Assembly (NCBI GenBank): GCA_025435555.1
Contig: JAIWWG010000176.1
Location: forward strand, 1-27,848
Origin: Chytriomyces cf. hyalinus JEL632
Taxonomy: Eukaryota; Chytridiomycota; Chytridiomycetes; Chytridiales; Chytriomycetaceae
Direction: 5' to 3'
DNA length: 27,848 nt
The notes below the pieces were generated by a model. The model searched no databases. It was not told the origin of the DNA and was given only the letters and a program-made list of their open reading frames with translations. The translations under genes and the position numbers were made by a program. This document shows positions 7,400 through 26,970 of the stretch, one piece after another. The first letter of the stretch is position 1, and the number at the start of each line of letters is the position of its first letter.

Positions 7400-7619
<220 letters not shown>

Positions 7620-7622
7620 CCA

Positions 7623-8456
7623 ATGCTGACCTGGAGCGACATTCCGTACGAGATCAAAGAGTTTATTCTTCAGCGCCTCGGCTTTGCCCGAGACATCCTA
7701 AACGCTGGCTTAGCAAGCAAAGATACCTGCGCAATCCTGACCGACGACGTATTCTGGCAGCACACAATCGAAAGACGCTTCGGAACAGTTCAGTTACCCC
7801 CCACAATCCCATTCCCCTAAACTCCCCACTAAAACAAAACAAAAACACAGAACAGCCTCCCACCCGAAGACACCTCCGCCAAAAAAACATATTCAACTCT
7901 CGCACTCCGAGCAGTACAAGCACATTCCCAAGACCTATCAGGCGCATGGACAACCAACATCCAATACTTCCAACCACGCTCGATCCAACATTCCATCAGC
8001 AACAAAGTACTCGCCCTAAACTCTGTATGGTGGTTCGAAGTGAATGCATCCTTCAGCGTTCCGAGTGGCCGATACAGACCCTACTTTCGCGTGGCATACG
8101 ATTTCCATCATTACACCGACAACTTTCGCGCATTGAATCTCGAGCATTTGAAATTCCAAGTCCAGTTTGGCGAGGAAGGCAGTGATGAACGGTCAGCGAC
8201 ACTGACACAGTTTGACGAGACCTGTTCATTGCCACGGTGCACATGGGTGCGGCTGTACTTGCCCCAGATTGTTGTCATTCCTGCGCACGCGTTTGAAGAA
8301 ATCAAATGCTCAATCACTGACACGGCCAGCACGCTCAAGCGACAGTTTTGTGTGGATGTGATTGGACTTGAGCGGGTCTTTGAATTTGAGGTGGACGGTG
8401 AGAGTAACAGGGATGTAGTGTTGGTGAAAGTGGAGGAGGAGTTTCATCCGCTGTGA
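7623..8456 (+). CDS. F-box protein with PP2 (phloem protein 2)-like C-terminal domain
   Basis: There are two exons (7623-7787 and 7851-8456) with a 63-nt phase-0 intron, GTTCAG...ACACAG, giving 256 aa. Residues 1-50 are F-box-like (LTWSDIPYEIKEFILQRL, then FWQHTIERRFG). Exon 2 has the PP2-type signature: AWTTNIQYFQPRSI, then VWWFEVNASFSVPSGRYRPY, followed by beta-strand-rich sequence to the C-terminus. F-box proteins bind SKP1 and bring substrates to SCF ubiquitin ligases; PP2 domains are best known from plant F-box/lectin proteins that bind glycans. A glycoprotein-recognising SCF receptor is therefore a reasonable inference. The non-canonical donor (GTTCAG) is the weakest part of the model. 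The leader is almost entirely CA repeat. Confidence 0.7.
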
Positions 8457-8524: not shown

Positions 8525-9486
8525 ATGCTCTCCCCGCTCACAATAGCATCAATCGCAGCAGCAGCGGCGGCATGTACAGCAGCAATCTATTCCGCCGTCG
8601 TTCCAAGCGAAACTGTAACCCTCGAACCACTCTCCTCATCCAAGATCCGCGCAAAAAAACGAGCCACCGTCGCTTCACTATACCCACCCCCCGAACCCGG
8701 CGCACTCGCTCGATTATCTGCAGGAACCACGTGTTTCTCAATCACAGGCAGCGAGTCCGGAAAAAGGATTATCCTCGTCCACGGCATATCCGGTAAACGC
8801 AACCCCTTCGCAATCCAACTCCCATAACGAATAAGCAAGCAAACAGGCACATGGGCATCAATGCCACACATCGTATCCTCACTCTCCCAACACGGATTCC
8901 GCGTCCTCGCATACGATCTATACGGCCGCGGCCACTCCTCCTCCCCGGGCATCCGATACACTGCCTCAGATTACACACTACAAATGAAAGACTTGATGGA
9001 CCACGTGGGTTGGGATCGTGCAAATGTGTTGGGATACAGTCTCGGCGGTGGGATTGCAACGAGTTTTGCAGATGTGTGTCCGGAGAGGGTTGAGAAGTTG
9101 GTGTTGATTGCTCCAGCGGGGTTGAGCAAGGTTTTGATTCTCATTTGTTCATGGATTGTTTGTTGTGGGGGTTGACAACTTGAATTTTAGGATATCCCGC
9201 TGGGCGGTCGATTGTTGCTCCTCCCCATCATTGGCCCTCTCATCACGTACACGGCAGGCCGCAGAATCCTCTCTTTCCTATCCCGAAGAAACCATAACGC
9301 GTTATACATCAAACAACCACACATGGTAAACTCATTCCAACCGCTCTCATATTCTCAACTCACACACACCCGCCACAGCAACACTTTTTCAACGTGCAAG
9401 ACTTGAATATCCGAATCCATCCCGGATTCATGCGTGCATATATCGGCACCGTTCGAAACGGACCTCTTCTTTCAGTCATGGGATGA
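8525..9486 (+). pseudogene. Alpha/beta hydrolase paralog 1, 3' end lost at a transposon-derived junction
   Basis: Exons 8525-8792, 8847-9130, 9191-9325 and 9379 onward splice in frame. The N-terminus is a hydrophobic Ala-rich anchor. The oxyanion motif (ILVHGISG) and nucleophile elbow (LGYSLGGG) are intact. Exon 4 matches paralog 2 only as far as TVRNGP. At 9469 the sequence switches to an inverted piece of transposase, which adds a few foreign residues and a TGA at 9484-9486. The last part of exon 4 and the final exon are missing, so the catalytic Asp and His are gone and cannot be found downstream. The upstream part has no other lesion, so the damage may be recent. Confidence 0.85.
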
Positions 9487-10336
9487 TGATGTTTTGGCAA
9501 ACATGAGGCCTTACATCACCACAGAATTTCCATTTGTCTTCAGTCACCGCTCTGGAATTGCAAAAACCATCGTCTCAAGTCTTGTGGATGATGTTCTCAC
9601 AGGCAAAGGACTGAAAGCATCTCGAGATGCTGTTGAGCAGAAGCATATCACACGTTTCAAGGAGTTGGAACGAGCATTCATTGCTCACCAAAATGACTAC
9701 TGTGATCATCAGTTAACAGCAGTTGGAAGTGCATCAAGCAGGCTCTTTCAAGCAAGCTCTCTTGGCACTTTCAAAGACAAAAGCAAATACTCTGGATTTG
9801 TACCATTAGCCAAATACTTTTCCTCAGTCTTTTTCAAGTATTTTGAAACACCAGTCTTTTCCATTCAGTCATTGCCCTTGACATGGTCCTCAGAACTGAA
9901 AGAAAAAGGTGCAAAGCTGACACGTGAGCTCTATCTGCACCGGCGCATGCAAATGATGGATGGAAATATATGGTCCATGGATGCAACATTCAAAGTAGCA
10001 AATCTTGTTATCATCAGAAATGCCAATGGAACATCCTCTCATCCAGTCAACTCAATATTCATAATCATGAATGAGTACGAGCAGGTCATATTTGCAAAAG
10101 CACTGGTTACAAATTCTTCAGAGGAGTTGAAGGGGCACTTGTACAAGCTCTTGTTGCATCGTTATCGAGCTCGGAAATTCAAAATGCCAATGCTGATTCA
10201 CACAGACAATTGCTGTGCAGACCGAGAAACGCTAAATCAAGTCTTGGAAAGCCTCTCTGATTGCGACAGCCAATTTTCGTCACGACTTGCAGATTTATCG
10301 CCAAACACAATTGCACCACTTCCAGAGCTAGAACTT
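9469..10336 (+). mobile_element. Inverted 868-bp copy of the transposase gene (internal fragment)
   Basis: This block is the reverse complement of 14062-14929 without any indel. I noticed about four substitutions, two of which change the protein (L/P and K/E). It codes for residues from FQSWDDDVLANM through the first two catalytic Asp residues to LPELEL. It has no terminus, no start and no splice sites of its own. It abuts hydrolase exon 4 on the left. On the right it stops 7 nt before the transposon's left terminal repeat. Confidence 0.95.
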
Positions 10337-10343
10337 TGGAGCC

Positions 10344-10384
10344 ACAACGCGGGGCTCCACATTCATGTCCGTGGGGCCGAATTT
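10344..10384 (+). repeat. Left terminal inverted repeat
   Basis: The repeat starts ACAACGCGGG and contains CGTGGGGCCGAATTT. Its first bases also lie in a small hairpin, GGAGCC...GGCTCC (10339-10357), which spans the element boundary. Its partner is 15944-15981. Confidence 0.7.
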
Positions 10385-10782
10385 AATTCAATTTAATTCA
10401 AAAGAAGAAAAGGGAAGAAAGAAGAGAAGATAATTAGCACTAACCGGCTTATTGACTGTTTGTAATGTCAAAGCAGCTTTTTGGGTCCGATTCCGTTGGA
10501 CCTGGCTGTTTTGATGCTGCTGGAATTGTCGCGTGTTGAAAATCTTTTTGTGCTGTTTTTGATCCGCTAACTGCGCTGATTGTGTCAAAAGCAATATCAG
10601 ATCGAAGATAGGAATGTTTTATTGTGCCTTGGAGGAAACGGGAGGAGAAAACACTGAGATTTGCATGAATCAGGGCAGACGTCTCTGATTGGTCAGTGGT
10701 CTGAAACCAATCAGCAGTTTCCTTCTCTCAGTAAATAAAATCAAGAAAATGTGGAAGTGAAAAAACCAACTTAAAAAGCGCC
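10385..10782. other. Transposon left subterminal region with inverted CCAAT pair; no confident gene
   Basis: This is the sequence between the left terminal repeat and the transposase stop codon. It starts with a 10-bp direct repeat (AATTTAATTC twice). A minus-strand open stretch at 10388-10594 lacks an ATG, is Gln/Asn-rich (FNTRQFQQHQNSQVQRN) and ends at a possible splice donor; it could be an exon remnant. At 10685-10714 a perfect inverted repeat, CTGATTGGT...ACCAATCAG, places two CCAAT boxes back to back, which might be a promoter or a transposase-binding site. Confidence 0.5.
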
Positions 10783-13700
10783 TCAACTGCCACTGTTTTC
10801 GCGCATGTACTTGGCGCATTTCTCGCAGTCACACGTATGAACGTGGGGTTTGTTGCGAAGTGTGCAGCGTGGCACCTTGCAGGATCCAGGTGTTTCAGTG
10901 CGTCGCCTCAGTGTTACAGGTACGGTGCATTCTGTTGATTTGCTTCCGCCGTGGTTCACCTCGTAATCTCCGACAAGTTTCAGATGGCCACATGTGAGGC
11001 AATGAGCCGGCCTCTGCATGCGCTTGCGATTCATGGTCAAGCTGGATACTCGCTGTTGGACTCCCCAACCTTGCGCAGCAAAATTTACCGCACCACCACT
11101 TGTCCCACTGCCGCTGCCTAATGTTGCCGTTCCCGGAAATTGCGCAGGATTTGCCGCGCCACCGCTTGTCCCACTGCCACTGCCTGATGTCGCCATTCTG
11201 ACCAGCTGCTGTCGAAAACTTGGACGAATATTTGCGAATTGTATCTGGGGTGCAGCCAACGAGGCGAGAGACTGGGCAGAAATTAGCATCCCCTGCCGCG
11301 TATTTTCGATGTTGGGAAGGACTTGGTTCTCTGTGTTCATGTGTGCAACAATGCTGGGAATCTCACTGTCGGAACTGGACATGCCTTGAGCAAATTCAGG
11401 ACGAATATCATGCAGTTGATTTGCTGGACAGATTGCAATTGTGCAATGCATTGTTTCATGTGGTTGGTTCACTGGACAAATTGCAATTGTGCGAGGCATT
11501 CTTGGTGCTGCCAGTGGAGGAAGTATGGTATGATTTGGAATGCGGAGTTGGTGACGAATCTGTAAGTGTAGCTCCTTCTGCAATCCCATGGTATTCCGTG
11601 CATTCACTGCTGACAGCACCAACTTGTGATAGGCTCGTATGTGCGCAGCAGTCTTTCGTCGTAAATTCTGAACAGAGCTGTTGCTGTGGTTTTCCAAAAG
11701 CCGATTCCATTCTTCAGCAAAGTCATTGTAGACATGTTCCATGTCGCATCCAGGCACAATGAATCGAGGAACAAGCTCCCAAAATCGATCTTTTTCCTCT
11801 TTCGTAACTATGGCCGTGATTGGAGTCTGGAATTCCTGCAGTTGAGCGTATTGTAGGGCCGACTTGGTCAAGTTGAAGTCGGGACTCTTGATTTCATCAT
11901 CATCAACATCCAGTTCGCTTAAATCATCAAACTCATCTTGATTTGGAGCTGCGAAATCTGCAACTGAACGGCGCAAACCCATCCTCTCGCCATTGTCTTC
12001 ATAGTCAAATATGCTTCCCCATGCTGCATATGGTACAATGTCAACCCGCGGCTCCAGCAGAAAATTGATTTCTTCAAGCACGTGCTGGTTGTAGAAACCC
12101 CCTATTTCTGGATCAAGGCCTCGATTCTTAATTGCCATGCGCAGATTCCATCGATATGTGAACTCAAGCAGCACTAAGTGAAGGAGGTACGGGGATCCAG
12201 AGTACATGTGCAGAACGTTGCGAAGGTGGCGATGGAATCCTTCATTTGAGTTTGTCCCCCGGCAACAGCGATATCTTGGAAGCCCGTCTTTTGTGTGACC
12301 ATCAACGAAATAAAGCGAAAGATCAGGAACATCACTGATGCAGCCATTTCGAATATGCTTTGCAAGATTTTTGATTTGTTTTCTTGTGACGCTTCTGAAC
12401 AACTGATCCCCTGTGAACATAATGTTTAGCAAAGAATAAAAATGCACAGAGATCTGACCTGTTTTTGCATCTTTCATGTCTGAGAATGCGTCAACAACAC
12501 ATTGGAACCGTGCCAGTAAAACGGCTTTTGGTGGGCAGACCTTGCGGCAGTGTCTCAAAAAGAAGGCCCAGTCTTGATTTTTCAATTCTCGAATGTCCAT
12601 GTCTGATTTGCCGGTTGCTTTCAGTACATTGCACACTTGTTCCAAATCATCTTTGCACACGAGAAAAAACGCGTCTTGGAGGCGAGACATAAATGCGTGA
12701 TATGCTCCATGAGAACTCAACACTGTGCGTGATATTCTTTGCATAGCATGAAAAATATCCAATCGGACATGGACTTTTTCCCCTGCAGTGAACATGCAGT
12801 TAGTGAAGGGCAGAAAAAAAAAAATAAGCAGCAAAGAAGTACCATTGATTGCAACTGTCACATCGTTTTCATCATCAATACACCTATCTGCAGCATTAAC
12901 ATCCTGCATCGAAGCAGCCTCAGTTCCTTCAGAGAGAAGGTTCCATTCCCCATTTTGAAGTACATGAATCCCATTTGCTGGTGTATCCAAGTCCATTTGT
13001 TCATCGTCTTGATAATCCATAACAGGAAGAGTCTCCACAATGTCCGAAACTGCAGGGAAAAAGTTTTCTTCATCTGAAGGTGTGGTAAAGTTGGCTGCAG
13101 AAAGGTCTGAAAATGATGAAGGCCCAGGGAGAACATTTTCAAACTCATGCTTTTGTCGGTACCACTCCACTGATTCAGGAGTTTCCAAACGAATATGCTT
13201 GTGGCTCCAAAGTATTTCATCGCCTGGCTTGTAAACTTGAAGTGACTCGTTTGGGACTTTTGGAAATGGCACTGTTGCTCCAGACAGATCCACTGATTCA
13301 AGCTTCACAACAACTCGAGTCTCTGCTTTAGCAGAAAGCTTGTAACGACCCCATGTGCCACCCAAGAAGCTGCTGACATGGCCAGTTGCAAGGTAATCAC
13401 CACTGAATTTTGGAAACAGCATCACTTTTGTTCCAGCAACAAGAGATTCCAAGGCTGGAGGTGCAGCATAGCGAGGATTCTCAATTGACTCCATCTTTTC
13501 AAAGATCAGCGCTGAGGAATACGTGTCAAGTGCACCGTAGCTAATTTGCTCTTCAGAAAGACGGCCCTCCCAGTTTGAAATACGAACACCCCCTTTTGGT
13601 AAATGATTTTTCAAAAACAGGCGGCATAGAAACGCAAGGCCTTTTTCTCGTAGTTGGATTCCGCGGGAGATTGCATGTTGGGCCAAATCAAGCCATTGAA

Positions 13701-15838
13701 CTTTGCTTGAGTCCAAATGGTAGTGCTTTTGCAGTCGCGTCAGATCAGCTTGTATGTAGTTTCCAACAAAATGATGCCGTCCATCATAAAGAAGCTCTTG
13801 CACTTCTTTTGGAAGCTTGGATATTGGCCGACCCTTTCGAAAAAGTGACAGTACATACGCATGCCCTTTGAATGTTCCAAGCTGCAGGGTTGCTGGAGGT
13901 CGCCCCTTTTCTCCGTACTGCGAAATATTGTACTCGATGTCAAGAGCAATTGCTCCACGCTTCCCAGCATTTCTCCTCAGCACTTCACAAACCATTTTGA
14001 GACCATCATCACTTCCCTCAAGTGAGAACTTGGTGATGTTATGGACAAGAGCCATGTCTGGAAGTTCCAGCTCTGGAAGTGGTGCAATTGTGTTTGGCGA
14101 TAAATCTGCAAGTCGTGACGAAAATTGGCTGTCACAATCAGAGAGGCTTTCCAAGACTTGATTTAGCGTTTCTCGGTCTGCACAGCAATTGTCTGTGTGA
14201 ATCAGCATTGGCATTTTGAATTTCCGAGCTCGATAACGATGCAACAAGAGCTTGTACAAGTGCCCCTTCAACTCCTCTGAAGAATTTGTAACCAGTGCTT
14301 TTGCAAATATGACCTGCTCGTACTCATTCATGATTATGAATATTGAGTTGACTGGATGAGAGGATGTTCCATTGGCATTTCTGATGATAACAAGATTTGC
14401 TACTTTGAATGTTGCATCCATGGACCATATATTTCCATCCATCATTTGCATGCGCCGGTGCAGATAGAGCTCACGTGTCAGCTTTGCACCTTTTTCTTTC
14501 AGTTCTGAGGACCATGTCAAGGGCAATGACTGAATGGAAAAGACTGGTGTTTCAAAATACTTGAAAAAGACTGAGGAAAAGTATTCGGCTAATGGTACAA
14601 ATCCAGAGTATTTGCTTTTGTCTTTGAAAGTGCCAAGAGAGCTTGCTTGAAAGGGCCTGCTTGATGCACTTCCAACTGCTGTTAACTGATGATCACAGTA
14701 GTCATTTTGGTGAGCAATGAATGCTCGTTCCAACTCCTTGAAACGCGTGATATGCTTCTGCTCAACAGCATCTCGAGATGCTTTCAGTCCTTTGCCTGTG
14801 AGAACATCATCCACAAGACTTGAGACGATGGTTTTTGCAATTCCAGAGCGGTGACTGAAGACAAATGGAAATTCTGTGGTGATGTAAGGCCTCATGTTTG
14901 CCAAAACATCATCATCCCATGACTGAAAGGTCCCATCCACAGTTTTGAGTGCCGCACTATCTCCAGCATCTTTCAGCTTGTTTTTTTCTTGCTGTGCTTT
15001 CACCTTAGCAGAACAGTCCAGGCACTTGTATCGTCGACCAAGGATTCTGACACTGTTGTACTCATCAATTGCATCACGCCATACATATCCGTGTCCATGG
15101 ATATGATTTCCATTACAATCTGGACATGGTGGATGCTTCATCTCGCCTGCATACAAATGTGGCCAGAGTAGTTCAGGAACCCAAATAAATGTCGGTTTTA
15201 CAAAGCATTTATTGATCTATGTTGCAGGTGAAACTTGGTTACAATGGCAACTGTTTAAAAATATGACTCAACAAACCAGTGATTCATGACACGCAAATGG
15301 TCTTGGCCCTGTCACCCACGGCCATTTTGCAGTTTGAATATGTGTTCGAATGCTCTGCGGCACAGTTTGAAGCATCGCGTTTTTTTTCGAGAGATCTGGA
15401 GATGTTTTTGATTTGACAACGTCTACGACAATTGCTTCCCACGTCTCATGCGTCCATTCCTCCCAGAATTTCGTTGTGGATGATTTCGGAATATTTGCGA
15501 GCAGTACAGTTGATGGTGGCTGATTTGCTGCAGGTAGCTGGGGAGGCAGTTGCACTGGCAACAACGTTTGCGTGCTTGAAAGTGGAGGAGCAGCAGCGAA
15601 TTCAGCAGCCTATTGACAAATGGATAGCAGGCTAAATGTGCGAAGGTGCTAATTGGGACAATGCTTCTAATAAACTCACCCGAATGGGGCTGATTGCAGT
15701 TCCACGACTCTGCACTGTTTTTTTGGGTTTCGGACCAGGGCGCTGGCTTCCAGCGGGATTCGTAGTGCCTTTCTTTCGACCACGGCCGGATGTTTTGGGT
15801 TCGTTTGGGGCATTTGTTGCGTTTGTTGCAGCTTGCAT
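10783..15838 (-). CDS. DUF6729-like DDE transposase with inserted DEDDy 3'-5' exonuclease domain
   Basis: Exons are 15838-15680, 15609-15277, 15216-12843, 12782-12459 and 12410-10783, giving about 1,600 aa. The last two introns (60 and 48 nt) are multiples of 3 and could be mistaken for coding sequence. Order of parts: an AT-hook-like basic stretch (TSGRGRKKG); the DUF6729-like start (FIWVPELLWPHL) with CPDC...CLDC zinc ligands; the first DDE parts (WSMDATFK and HTDNCCAD); a complete DEDDy exonuclease (ALDIEYN, GNYIQADLTRL, ISYGALDTY); a possible SH3/Tudor-like module; an acidic linker; LDIFHAMQRIS; and the putative catalytic Glu in GTNSNEGFHRHLR. The C-terminus has repeated TIAICP-NQ and SGSGTSGGA units and a Cys cluster. 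DDE folds cut and join DNA ends; DEDD exonucleases trim 3' ends. No lesion is seen, so the gene may be active. The domain assignments come from motif recognition, not a search. Confidence 0.85.
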
Positions 15839-15928
15839 CGTTGCTGTGCGTCGACGCTCCGATTTTTTGGGGCTTGTTTTTTCTTCGATCCCGATTCGTC
15901 AGAGGTTTCAGACGTCTGAGACTGCTGG

Positions 15929-15933
15929 CCAAT
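15929..15933 (+). promoter_or_regulatory. CCAAT box between divergent transposase and hydrolase 2 genes
   Basis: GGCCAATCAGAAG lies in the 210-bp gap between the transposase start (15838, leftward) and the hydrolase 2 start (16049, rightward). It is about 90 nt upstream of the transposase ATG. No clear TATA box accompanies it. Confidence 0.35.
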
Positions 15934-15943
15934 CAGAAGTCAG

Positions 15944-15981
15944 AAATCGGCCCACGAGAATGAAAGTGTTGCCCGCGTTGT
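15944..15981 (-). repeat. Right terminal inverted repeat
   Basis: Read on the minus strand it starts ACAACGCGGG and contains TTCATTCTCGTGGGCCGATTT. It pairs with 10344-10384. It ends 68 nt before the hydrolase 2 start codon, so the element edge forms part of that gene's upstream region. Confidence 0.7.
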
Positions 15982-17420: not shown

Positions 17421-18832
17421 CTAATGATGTCGGATGAACACGACATTCCCACGAATCTCCACATCCTCCTCCTCCAACCCAACATCAGCTAAAGATAACA
17501 CGCCTCCATCATACTCAAACCGAATCTCTTCACGACAAAGATGACAACGCAAACGCGAGTGGGGTGGCACATTTCTGCCAGATGCCGAATTTGCTGACGC
17601 TGCTGCTGCAGCCGACAATCGTAACGCTGCAATGCAGTCGGAACAGCATGAGTGGGAACACGACGTAAAAGTCACATTACATGTGTTCTCAAAGCAGATG
17701 CAACATTCCTTTCGACCAACATCTTTACCCTTCAACGAGTGCGAAATCGAATCCACTTGAGTGAGCAGTGACTCCTTCCAGGCTTTGATGGCCGTGACAT
17801 CCTTGTCATACAGTTGGAACCAAGGGTATCCATTGCGCGCGTATTGTGCAAAACTCGCCACCGGCTCGCGAATGCCGCCTGCGTCAATTGATTGCCCCTT
17901 TGCGAAATCCACCACGTTGAGAAGAGTGATCCTGGAGGTGAGCGACAGCGGGTGGAACCGGGAGACATCACCGTCCGTGTCCTTGTAAATGTTTTGCTTG
18001 ATGAGACCTCCCATCAAAAGAGCATACTCACGTGGGTTAGAAGGGCCGCCGCCGCGTAAACGGAGAACTAGGTGCAGCACAGACTCTGTTCGGATGTTGT
18101 AGTCGGGGTTCGATCGTCTTCCAATTGCTTTCCGGCAAATATGAGTCGTTGCTGGTCCACAGGGATGCCCTCCTTGTCCTGGATAAGTGCCTTGATCGTC
18201 TTGATGGTGTCACTCGGGTTTACACTCAACATAAAGGTCTTTTCCGTCAGAGTCTTGATGTTGATGGGAAATCCAGACCAGAATTCCAAGTGGGCAAACC
18301 GTCCGATTTCTGCAAGATGGAAGCATCGAAACAAGTCGGTGACTGTTGCAGTGGTTGAATTAGCAAAAAAGACGGTGTCGCCGGGAGCAAGGCCAAGAGA
18401 GCGAAACGACATTTTAAGCTCCGTTGGCTCGAAAAAGCGCATGTGCTTCGCGGACCAGACGGCATTGACAGTGGGATACGCTCGGAAAACTTCGAAAGAC
18501 AGGCCGCCCGTTGCCTTTGCGATCAAACCCTTCTTTAACAGCTGCCCTTCGATACCGTCTTCGAAGGCCCCGGCGACAAACTGCCGAACAGAACCGCCAG
18601 CGACCATGACACCGTCGAGCCATGGTTGTTGTCGGACAATGTAATTTTGCGGGTTTACAGTGAGGACGCCCGGTTCATCTTCCAAACCCGTGATGACGTT
18701 GACTGAGCCAGCCAAAATCTTGACGGCAACGTCATCGACTCCAAACGTGAAATTCATCCACATTGCTTCCGATTGGTAGAGGGGCAGGCAAATGGAATGA
18801 TTTTCCTTGTCGCTGTCGTCACTTGTGTCCAT
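17421..18832 (-). CDS. Ubiquitin-RING fusion protein, with a frameshift inside the ubiquitin domain
   Basis: The 5' frame runs from ATG at 18832 to about 18113; the 3' frame runs on to the stop at 17421. The N-terminal part (about 150 residues) holds [20 protein letters not shown], a conserved segment I recall from uncharacterised fungal and bacterial proteins. A ubiquitin domain follows: [28 protein letters not shown], then in the other frame DYNI and [10 protein letters not shown]. After GG comes about 110 residues including [11 protein letters not shown], then a RING finger ([24 protein letters not shown]). At the junction (about 18111-18116) only 2 nt stand where 6 are expected, so 4 nt are missing. 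RING proteins are usually E3 ligases. The Gly-Gly could be a deubiquitinase site that releases the two halves. Confidence 0.8.
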
Positions 18833-25747: not shown

Positions 25748-26970
25748 TCACGAATTCGTATCTCCTCGAAACGTCAATGAAACCCGCAACACTCGCTCCA
25801 CCCTTGTGCAATTCACGACATCTGCTTTTCGTGCACGAATGCCGTGTTCCCAACCGAACCGGGAAGCGCCGGCCATGAAACAGATGGAGCGAGGTGGGAG
25901 TTGGACGTGTAGTGTTTTGTGTGTTGGTTGAAGTTGTGGTATTGTGTTTGTGGCTGGAGAAGTTGGATCGGAGTAGTACAGGGTGCGAAATTCCATTTGA
26001 ACTGGGGAGAGTAGCGAGACGGATGTGATTGGCGAGTCGAAGCGAGTGTGAGTGTCGACATGTGGTGAGATGCCTTCGCAAAAGTAATAAAGCAAATTAA
26101 GGGTCAAGAACGCGCATTGGACGATAAAGAATTTACCTGAACCAGGCGGATACCGATTCAAAGTCAGCTGGTTAAACCCTCGATAATCAAAATCATGTGG
26201 ATATTGAAGCATCAAATCCCTCAGGGTATCATCCATGCGCTGCACCAGAAACTGACACCAGGCCGGCAACTGCCCAGGATCTTTCGAAAAGTCGATATGG
26301 TTGCTATCATAATCAAACACGAACCCATGATGCTGCACTTGTCTCTCAGAAAGACTGATCCACGGATGTTGTTCCATACCATCGAGAAGTCGCGCTTCTT
26401 CTTCTTCCGAGATAAAGTCATGGACAATATGGAGTCCAGGAATCGCAGCTAAGATTTCAGACGGTTTTGTGAGCGTGTCCGAGTCCGAGAATGGAATGCG
26501 TTTTGCTTTGAAGGCATGGATGATTCTGCCAGTTGGATGCTGAGATTTGACAGCGGCGGACACGAGATGATGCGAAAACAGAATGTCTGAGGCATCTACG
26601 GATGTATCACTTGTTGCAGCGAAGAAAGCATTGTCCAGATGCATGAGTGCAGTTTGTGCATCAAGCGGGGATGCAAACACGGCGAACGAGTAGCTTTTGC
26701 CTCGAGCCACCTGTGGGAGTAGTCAGACATCATATGCAGGTTCGTGCAGATCAAAAGCATTACTTTTAGGGCCTGGAATCCGCCCAAGCCTGCCAGCACA
26801 GTGAGGATGCTCGACACGTCAAACGGATTGGGCTCGTTGCCCACATTCGCCAAACATACAGCGCAGGCGTGATCAGCATCGTCTGATGGATCCAAGTACA
26901 GGAGTGATTCGATCGGAACGTCCTCCTTCCGCTGGATCGAGGCAAGCAGTTTCGCAATCTTTTTTGACAT
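25748..26970 (-). CDS. ALKBH8: ALKBH8-like RRM plus AlkB 2-oxoglutarate/Fe(II) dioxygenase
   Basis: Exons 26970-26764, 26710-26137 and 26073-25748 give 368 aa with matching phases; the second intron (63 nt) is a multiple of 3. Residues about 35-100 form an RRM (HACAVCLANVG, then KSYSFAVFASPLDAQTAL). The AlkB domain follows: GLHIVHDFISEEEEARLL, LNRYPPGSG, the iron ligands HVD (in ISPHVDTHTRF) and His (FGWEHGI), and the 2-oxoglutarate Arg region (RVSLTFRG). The domain order RRM-AlkB is that of ALKBH8, which hydroxylates wobble-uridine modifications in tRNA. The methyltransferase domain of animal ALKBH8 is absent. A role in tRNA modification is inferred by homology. The start is 157 nt from the divergent BRCT gene. 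Confidence 0.85.

Follow-up and report, generated by a model that had tools for sequence, protein, structure and literature searches.

The question raised by this locus is whether one protein combines an Asp-Asp-Glu (DDE)-type transposase with a complete DEDDy 3′-5′ exonuclease and, if so, in what kind of mobile element that protein resides. The window, that is, the whole stretch of DNA analyzed, comprises 27,848 nucleotides of contig JAIWWG010000176.1 from Chytriomyces cf. hyalinus JEL632 (assembly GCA_025435555.1), and it contains a DNA transposon of 5,621 bp with its gene on the minus strand (Table 1). That this recently moved element encodes a DDE-type transposase into which a complete DEDDy exonuclease is nested is well supported by the sequence. 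We consider it about 65% probable that the element moves autonomously by cut and paste, that it belongs among the Dada DNA transposons or in a sister lineage of theirs, and that the two activities are used as described below.

Recent mobility of the element is evident from a near-identical copy, conserved termini, target duplications, and empty sites. The copy designated C195 (C195:35-5655) differs from the window copy at 9 of 5,621 positions (99.84% identity), and its flanks are unlike those of the window copy, which indicates recent movement. Six of the differences lie in the coding exons, four of them amino-acid changes. Beyond C195, at least eight protein-level matches were found in the genome (the partial copy in the window, C17, C199, C49, C221, C172, C181, and C76; such copy counts are lower bounds), all of which are partial or decayed; the C199 copy carries stops and has one recognizable end.

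The termini of the element, GGCTCCAC on the gene-3′ side and GGCAACAC on the gene-5′ side, are imperfect inverted repeats over 27–28 bp. Their alignment score of 34, for a length chosen after the ends had been seen, compares with a best score of 31 among 2,000 shuffles. The 5′ ends of C49, C221, C181, C172, and C76 gave no match to the gene-5′ pattern, and C221 meets a contig end. Three of the four copies with both ends (C195, C175, and the window copy) show an 8-bp target duplication; a search at C199 found none. C195 is flanked by the exact 8-bp repeat ATATATTC. C175 is a 1,313-bp nonautonomous copy between CAGTTTTG and CACTTTTG (7 of 8 bases alike), and it interrupts the terminal repeat of a mariner-like element; where that element is unoccupied, the site occurs once. 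For the window copy, the empty site is present in two relatives, C97 (98% identical over 200 bp) and C106 (99%). Both carry GGACCGCGTTGT there, after which C97 has TGAC and C106 has CGAC. The right flank of the window copy carries CGCGTTGT. On the left side, ACAACGCGG stands between two inverted element ends; it is CCGCGTTGT, a C followed by the duplication, in reverse complement. The empty sites thus set the duplication at 8 bp, and the 9 bp between the inverted copies would have been flipped later, most simply by recombination between those copies.

Two further arrangements of termini were observed. The segment at 9469–10352, which includes an inverted partial copy, looks like the product of an internal deletion followed by recombination between inverted copies. 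In L048 at ∼1510–1545 (C175, near 21108), gene-3′ and gene-5′-like termini face each other with 6 bp (TTTGTC) between them; this junction resembles a tandem or circle-type junction, and 6 bp does not fit the 8-bp duplication.

The low copy number and the partial or decayed state of most relatives would suit a transposase gene that has died or been domesticated, as opposed to a mobile element. However, the near-identical copy with other flanks, the conserved termini, and the duplications all stand against such a gene, and as far as recent mobility is concerned the empty sites already contradict it; we consider this explanation hardly credible. The original prediction, made from this stretch alone, had expected a multicopy element with matching ends and had proposed that other genomic copies be mapped; C195 and at least eight more places, with conserved termini and 8-bp duplications, bear this out, and the mapping has defined both the ends and the target duplications.

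The gene contains an open frame of 1,457 codons (10783–15156, minus strand). The predicted spliced gene, which consists of this frame plus two upstream exons and minus two in-frame introns (60 and 48 nt), has five exons and encodes a protein of 1,583 residues. By eye, the match to C17 breaks near the same introns, supporting the splice model, and the exons are predicted to be intact. In the spliced protein, the motifs follow the order D-D-[exonuclease]-DxxH-E, with additional CCCC and CCHC zinc motifs. The original prediction had named D247, D322, and E972, together with a conserved-looking Asp in LDIFH (about residue 800), as candidate catalytic residues. The first two sit where proposed in the open frame, and the latter two fall into place once the two introns are counted; the Asp of LDIFH belongs to the DxxH motif of the Dada group. 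All transposase and exonuclease residues are retained in the window copy, C195, and C17. In C199, Asn replaces the Asp of DxxH, and C221, C49, and C181, which of these sites cover only DxxH and the Glu, keep both.

The nested exonuclease was identified by a match to DNA_pol_A_exo1 (PF01612) at residues 386–557 of the open frame (27.3 bits, cut-off 23.6), one of the profiles that the original prediction had named for searching and the only Pfam domain above its cut-off in this frame. The C17 relative matches the same family with 41.4 bits. A two-sequence profile built from the window copy and C17 matched, in the PDB, EXD2 (E = 1.9e-5), a WRN homologue (2.8e-5), a mut-7 homologue (8.7e-5), and human WRN (1.1e-4). 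After splicing, the five DEDDy residues are D568, E570, D633, Y702, and D706, in agreement with the prediction of an exonuclease with all three motifs. They are present in three of the four copies that cover the domain (window, C195, and C17); C199 keeps the acidic residues and has His in place of Tyr. A likeness to DUF6729 that had also been suggested found no support: no Pfam-A match to it was found at E ≤ 10 in the open frame or in the spliced N-terminal 502 residues, and the word was not found in the open-licence literature searched.

The termini, duplications, and empty sites strongly suggest cut and paste with an 8-bp stagger. In the mechanism that we favor, one protein would bind the element ends through its zinc motifs and basic stretches, an RNase H-like DDE site of the DxxH class would cut them, and the element would be inserted with the 8-bp stagger. 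The nested WRN/EXD2-like 3′-5′ exonuclease would most likely act on 3′ ends at the donor break or at the joining intermediate, and the two activities would both serve one reaction. These 3′ ends are favored over the transposon tips because the same outermost bases, GGC/GCC, are kept and abut the duplication at all three insertions with duplications. The original prediction had included a cut-and-trim cycle, in which the exonuclease would shorten the 3′ ends of the transposon itself ahead of insertion. The C175 copy has one end that reads GGCCAC and not GGCTCCAC, in line with such trimming, whereas the constant terminal bases beside the duplications make it less likely, and we regard trimming of the tips as improbable. 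The end searches demanded the terminal bases or nearly so and could thus have missed ragged ends. The original interpretation therefore stands in its nested DEDDy exonuclease within a recently moved DDE transposase, as read from the sequence, and loses ground in tip trimming; its architecture and the idea of end processing had already been published for Dada. The element appears intact, its ends have been mapped, and two near-identical copies are present alongside a nonautonomous relative and empty sites, so that the role of the exonuclease is open to a mobility assay.

Several observations weigh against an autonomous Dada-like element that uses its exonuclease in this way. Pfam transposase families gave no match at E ≤ 10 in the two protein segments that were also searched for DUF6729, and two single-sequence AlphaFold2 models were unusable (mean predicted local distance difference test scores of 40.9 and 34.7). 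Nonsynonymous divergence (dN) counts in favor of the model: when the window copy is set against C17, the exonuclease has a dN of 0.279 and the first DDE part one of 0.288, compared with 0.401 for the N-terminal zinc part and 0.538 for the region that follows the exonuclease. This comparison is limited, however, to one pair and speaks of past rather than present need; synonymous divergence (dS) is saturated, and the dN/dS ratio was therefore set aside. Of the four residues at which the window copy and C195 differ, one falls in the exonuclease (S574W). C17 has both ends, and a search for a duplication found none; its frame also changes twice, near residues 684 and 1039, for which introns do not account, so that only the window copy and C195 look intact. 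In the decayed copy C49 (L013 5001-4968), residues 393 and 741 are encoded only ∼32 bp apart, and the whole exonuclease is therefore missing. Three departures from the published description of Dada, considered below, count on the same side.

In terms of insertion targets, the window copy interrupts a gene a few codons short of its end, which in the empty site of C106 reads ...KVVDRVVDFL. By eye, the interrupted gene end appears to belong to an alpha/beta hydrolase; the neighboring frame at 16049 matches Abhydrolase_1, and the piece at 8525–8827 has no match at E ≤ 0.01. C195 has inserted directly at a mariner-like tip (34 bp of flank, with an exact 14-base match and the rest by eye), and the C175 insertion is ∼14–22 bp inside a mariner-like tip. 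The mariner-like element, a label chosen in this analysis, has a DDE_3 match of 66.7 bits. Two of the three insertions with duplications are thus no more than ∼25 bp from a tip in one mariner-like family, which hints at, but does not establish, a preference for other transposon ends. The mariner-like family itself, at L061 (C178:103900-106530), has a DDE_3 transposase and TTGTGCGTCCA ends; its end motif occurs as four inverted pairs ∼2.5 kb apart in the genome, and the two insertions just described lie at the family's ends.

A search of the window and nine loci with Rfam, which undescribed RNA genes would escape, returned one tRNA only, in L042 and ∼2.1 kb from the nearest protein match; L058–L060 gave one sub-threshold GAIT match, and the C199 end gave nothing. 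The flanks of C175 and C199 look tRNA-like by eye, an appearance supported by neither ARAGORN nor Rfam. Five of nine flanks match elsewhere in the genome, and four match only themselves. In L010 at 8277–8337 (C17), 61 bp beside the gene-3′ end recur at many genome places; the C17 flank at the opposite end matches only itself.

Table 1. Features of the transposon and its gene in the window
Feature	Position	Strand	Basis
Whole transposon	10353..15973	-	identity with C195:35-5655 starts and stops at these positions, 9 differences
Terminus on gene-3′ side, GGCTCCAC...	10353..10380	+	pattern at 9 genome places, reversed control 0; 7 sequences compared
Terminus on gene-5′ side, GGCAACAC..., imperfect inverted repeat of other end	15947..15973	-	pattern at 5 places, control 0
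Target duplication CGCGTTGT, right copy	15974..15981	+	once in empty relatives C97 and C106
ACAACGCGG, left copy of duplication, flipped	10344..10352	+	flip presumed
Inverted partial copy: 868-bp internal piece joined to 7 bp of gene-3′ terminus (TGGAGCC)	9469..10343	+	99.4% identical to 14062-14929
Exon 1 (basic, GRGRKKG and PGPKPKK stretches)	15680..15838	-	spliced model
Exon 2	15273..15609	-	spliced model
Exon 3: zinc motif, first DDE half, exonuclease	12843..15146	-	spliced model
Exon 4: DxxH	12459..12782	-	spliced model
Exon 5: triad Glu, C-terminal zinc motif	10783..12410	-	spliced model
N-terminal CCCC zinc motif (C173, C176, C207, C210)	15013..15126	-	assigned by eye
First candidate catalytic Asp, D409 (D247 of open frame)	14416..14418	-	spliced model and alignment of copies
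Second candidate catalytic Asp, D484 (D322 of open frame)	14191..14193	-	spliced model and alignment of copies
DEDDy exonuclease (PF01612)	13486..14004	-	Pfam match, profile match to PDB
DxxH motif (DIFH), residues 942-945	12748..12759	-	spliced model and alignment of copies
Candidate catalytic Glu, E1098 (E972 of open frame)	12241..12243	-	spliced model and alignment of copies
C-terminal CCHC zinc motif (C1512, C1515, H1528, C1536)	10927..11001	-	assigned by eye

The window holds other features outside the transposon. Helitron-like remains lie at 474–2632 on the minus strand, with a DUF6570 match over its cut-off (36.7 bits) and, in the adjacent frame, a sub-threshold Helitron_like_N match (20.8 bits, cut-off 28.9). 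Long CA-repeat arrays occupy 7409–7618, and the interruption CAGCTGCAAAAAG recurs at the start of each array. A frame at 17421–18832 (minus strand) has a RING-type match just below cut-off (zf-C3HC4_3, 24.0 bits, cut-off 27) and adjoins a frame with, by eye, a ubiquitin-like stretch. A 2OG-Fe(II) oxygenase (2OG-FeII_Oxy_2, 50.8 bits) lies at 25748–26710 on the minus strand.

The architecture described here is not new. In the available text of the papers cited from here on, a DDE transposase with a nested exonuclease was published for Dada transposons in 2013 by Kojima and Jurka (PMC3706591), who state exonuclease-bearing Dada for Laccaria bicolor and Ectocarpus siliculosus and already propose that the exonuclease processes cleaved ends. 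Among the article texts consulted, an exonuclease inside a DDE transposase was reported only in that article. Like the exonuclease-bearing Dada, the protein in the window has a DDE triad with DxxH, a DEDDy exonuclease between the second D and DxxH, an N-terminal CCCC motif, a C-terminal CCHC motif, and introns (PMC3706591). In comparison with Dada-U6_DR, the N-terminal zinc motif is, by eye, CX2C-X30-CX2C here and CX4C-X34-CX2C there, and the C-terminal one is CX2C-X12-H-X7-C here and CX2C-X9-H-X8-C there. The catalytic spacings lie close to each other: the D-D spacing is 75 here and 68 there, and the 156 residues from DxxH to E here are within the span of 176 from the second D to E there (PMC3706591). 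Dada-U6, Dada-U1, and tRNA-targeting Dada share the DDE triad with DxxH and the zinc motifs, whereas no exonuclease is mentioned for them in the available text (PMC3706591; PMC8869645).

The three departures concern the ends and the targets. Dada target duplications are 6–7 bp (PMC3706591; PMC8869645), compared with 8 bp here; Dada-U6 and Dada-U1 are without terminal inverted repeats (PMC3706591), compared with imperfect ones here; and Dada inserts in small-RNA genes, whereas no small-RNA gene was recognized at the insertions here. Small-RNA gene targets were described for all Dada families with clear termini in 2013 (PMC3706591) and for "many" in 2022 (PMC8869645), and one medaka Dada copy lies in a hAT element (PMC8869645). 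The ends and targets of the Laccaria and Ectocarpus elements are undescribed in the available text of PMC3706591, and searches of the open-licence literature turned up no Dada element described as having both inverted termini and 8-bp duplications. The element has the build and, probably, the mode of action of an exonuclease-bearing Dada. Because this likeness is one to the published description and because these three features differ, we use the label Dada-like variant; membership in Dada is probable but unproven.

The differences in duplication length and termini would also be expected if the element belonged to another or undescribed superfamily of the DxxH class, for which 8-bp duplications and inverted termini are normal and which had independently gained a WRN-like exonuclease in the same position as in Dada. 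The position of the exonuclease relative to the second D and DxxH, together with both zinc motifs, agrees with published Dada (PMC3706591), and acquisition twice over at one position is the less economical account; we judge such an origin unlikely. Only a small chance is given to a separate lineage beside Dada, defined by inverted termini, an 8-bp stagger, no RNA-gene targeting, and a built-in exonuclease that would remove 3′ ends at the donor break or joining intermediate, and which may favor the ends of other transposons.

Other systems were compared as well. Zisupton/KDZ, compared by description only, shares the 8-bp duplication and was set aside, the word "exonuclease" being absent from the main text of PMC12730594. 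Scans with two short peptides each, from the N-terminal 683 residues, gave 59 pattern matches in IMG/VR and 83 in prokaryote genomes, none confirmed, a weak result that is uninformative on eukaryotes. The WRN and EXD2 exonucleases have the same DEDDy motifs, whereas the domain here is embedded between transposase motifs. Bdelloid rotifer Terminons are likewise mobile elements with DEDDy 3′-exonucleases, but they are retroelements, and in the available text their exonuclease is not described as nested in a DDE transposase (PMC6431247). Among these systems, the exonuclease-bearing Dada of Laccaria and Ectocarpus resemble the element in the window in catalytic and zinc motifs, and the 8-bp duplications and inverted termini observed here suggest that exonuclease-bearing relatives of Dada need not share the RNA-gene targeting of animal Dada.

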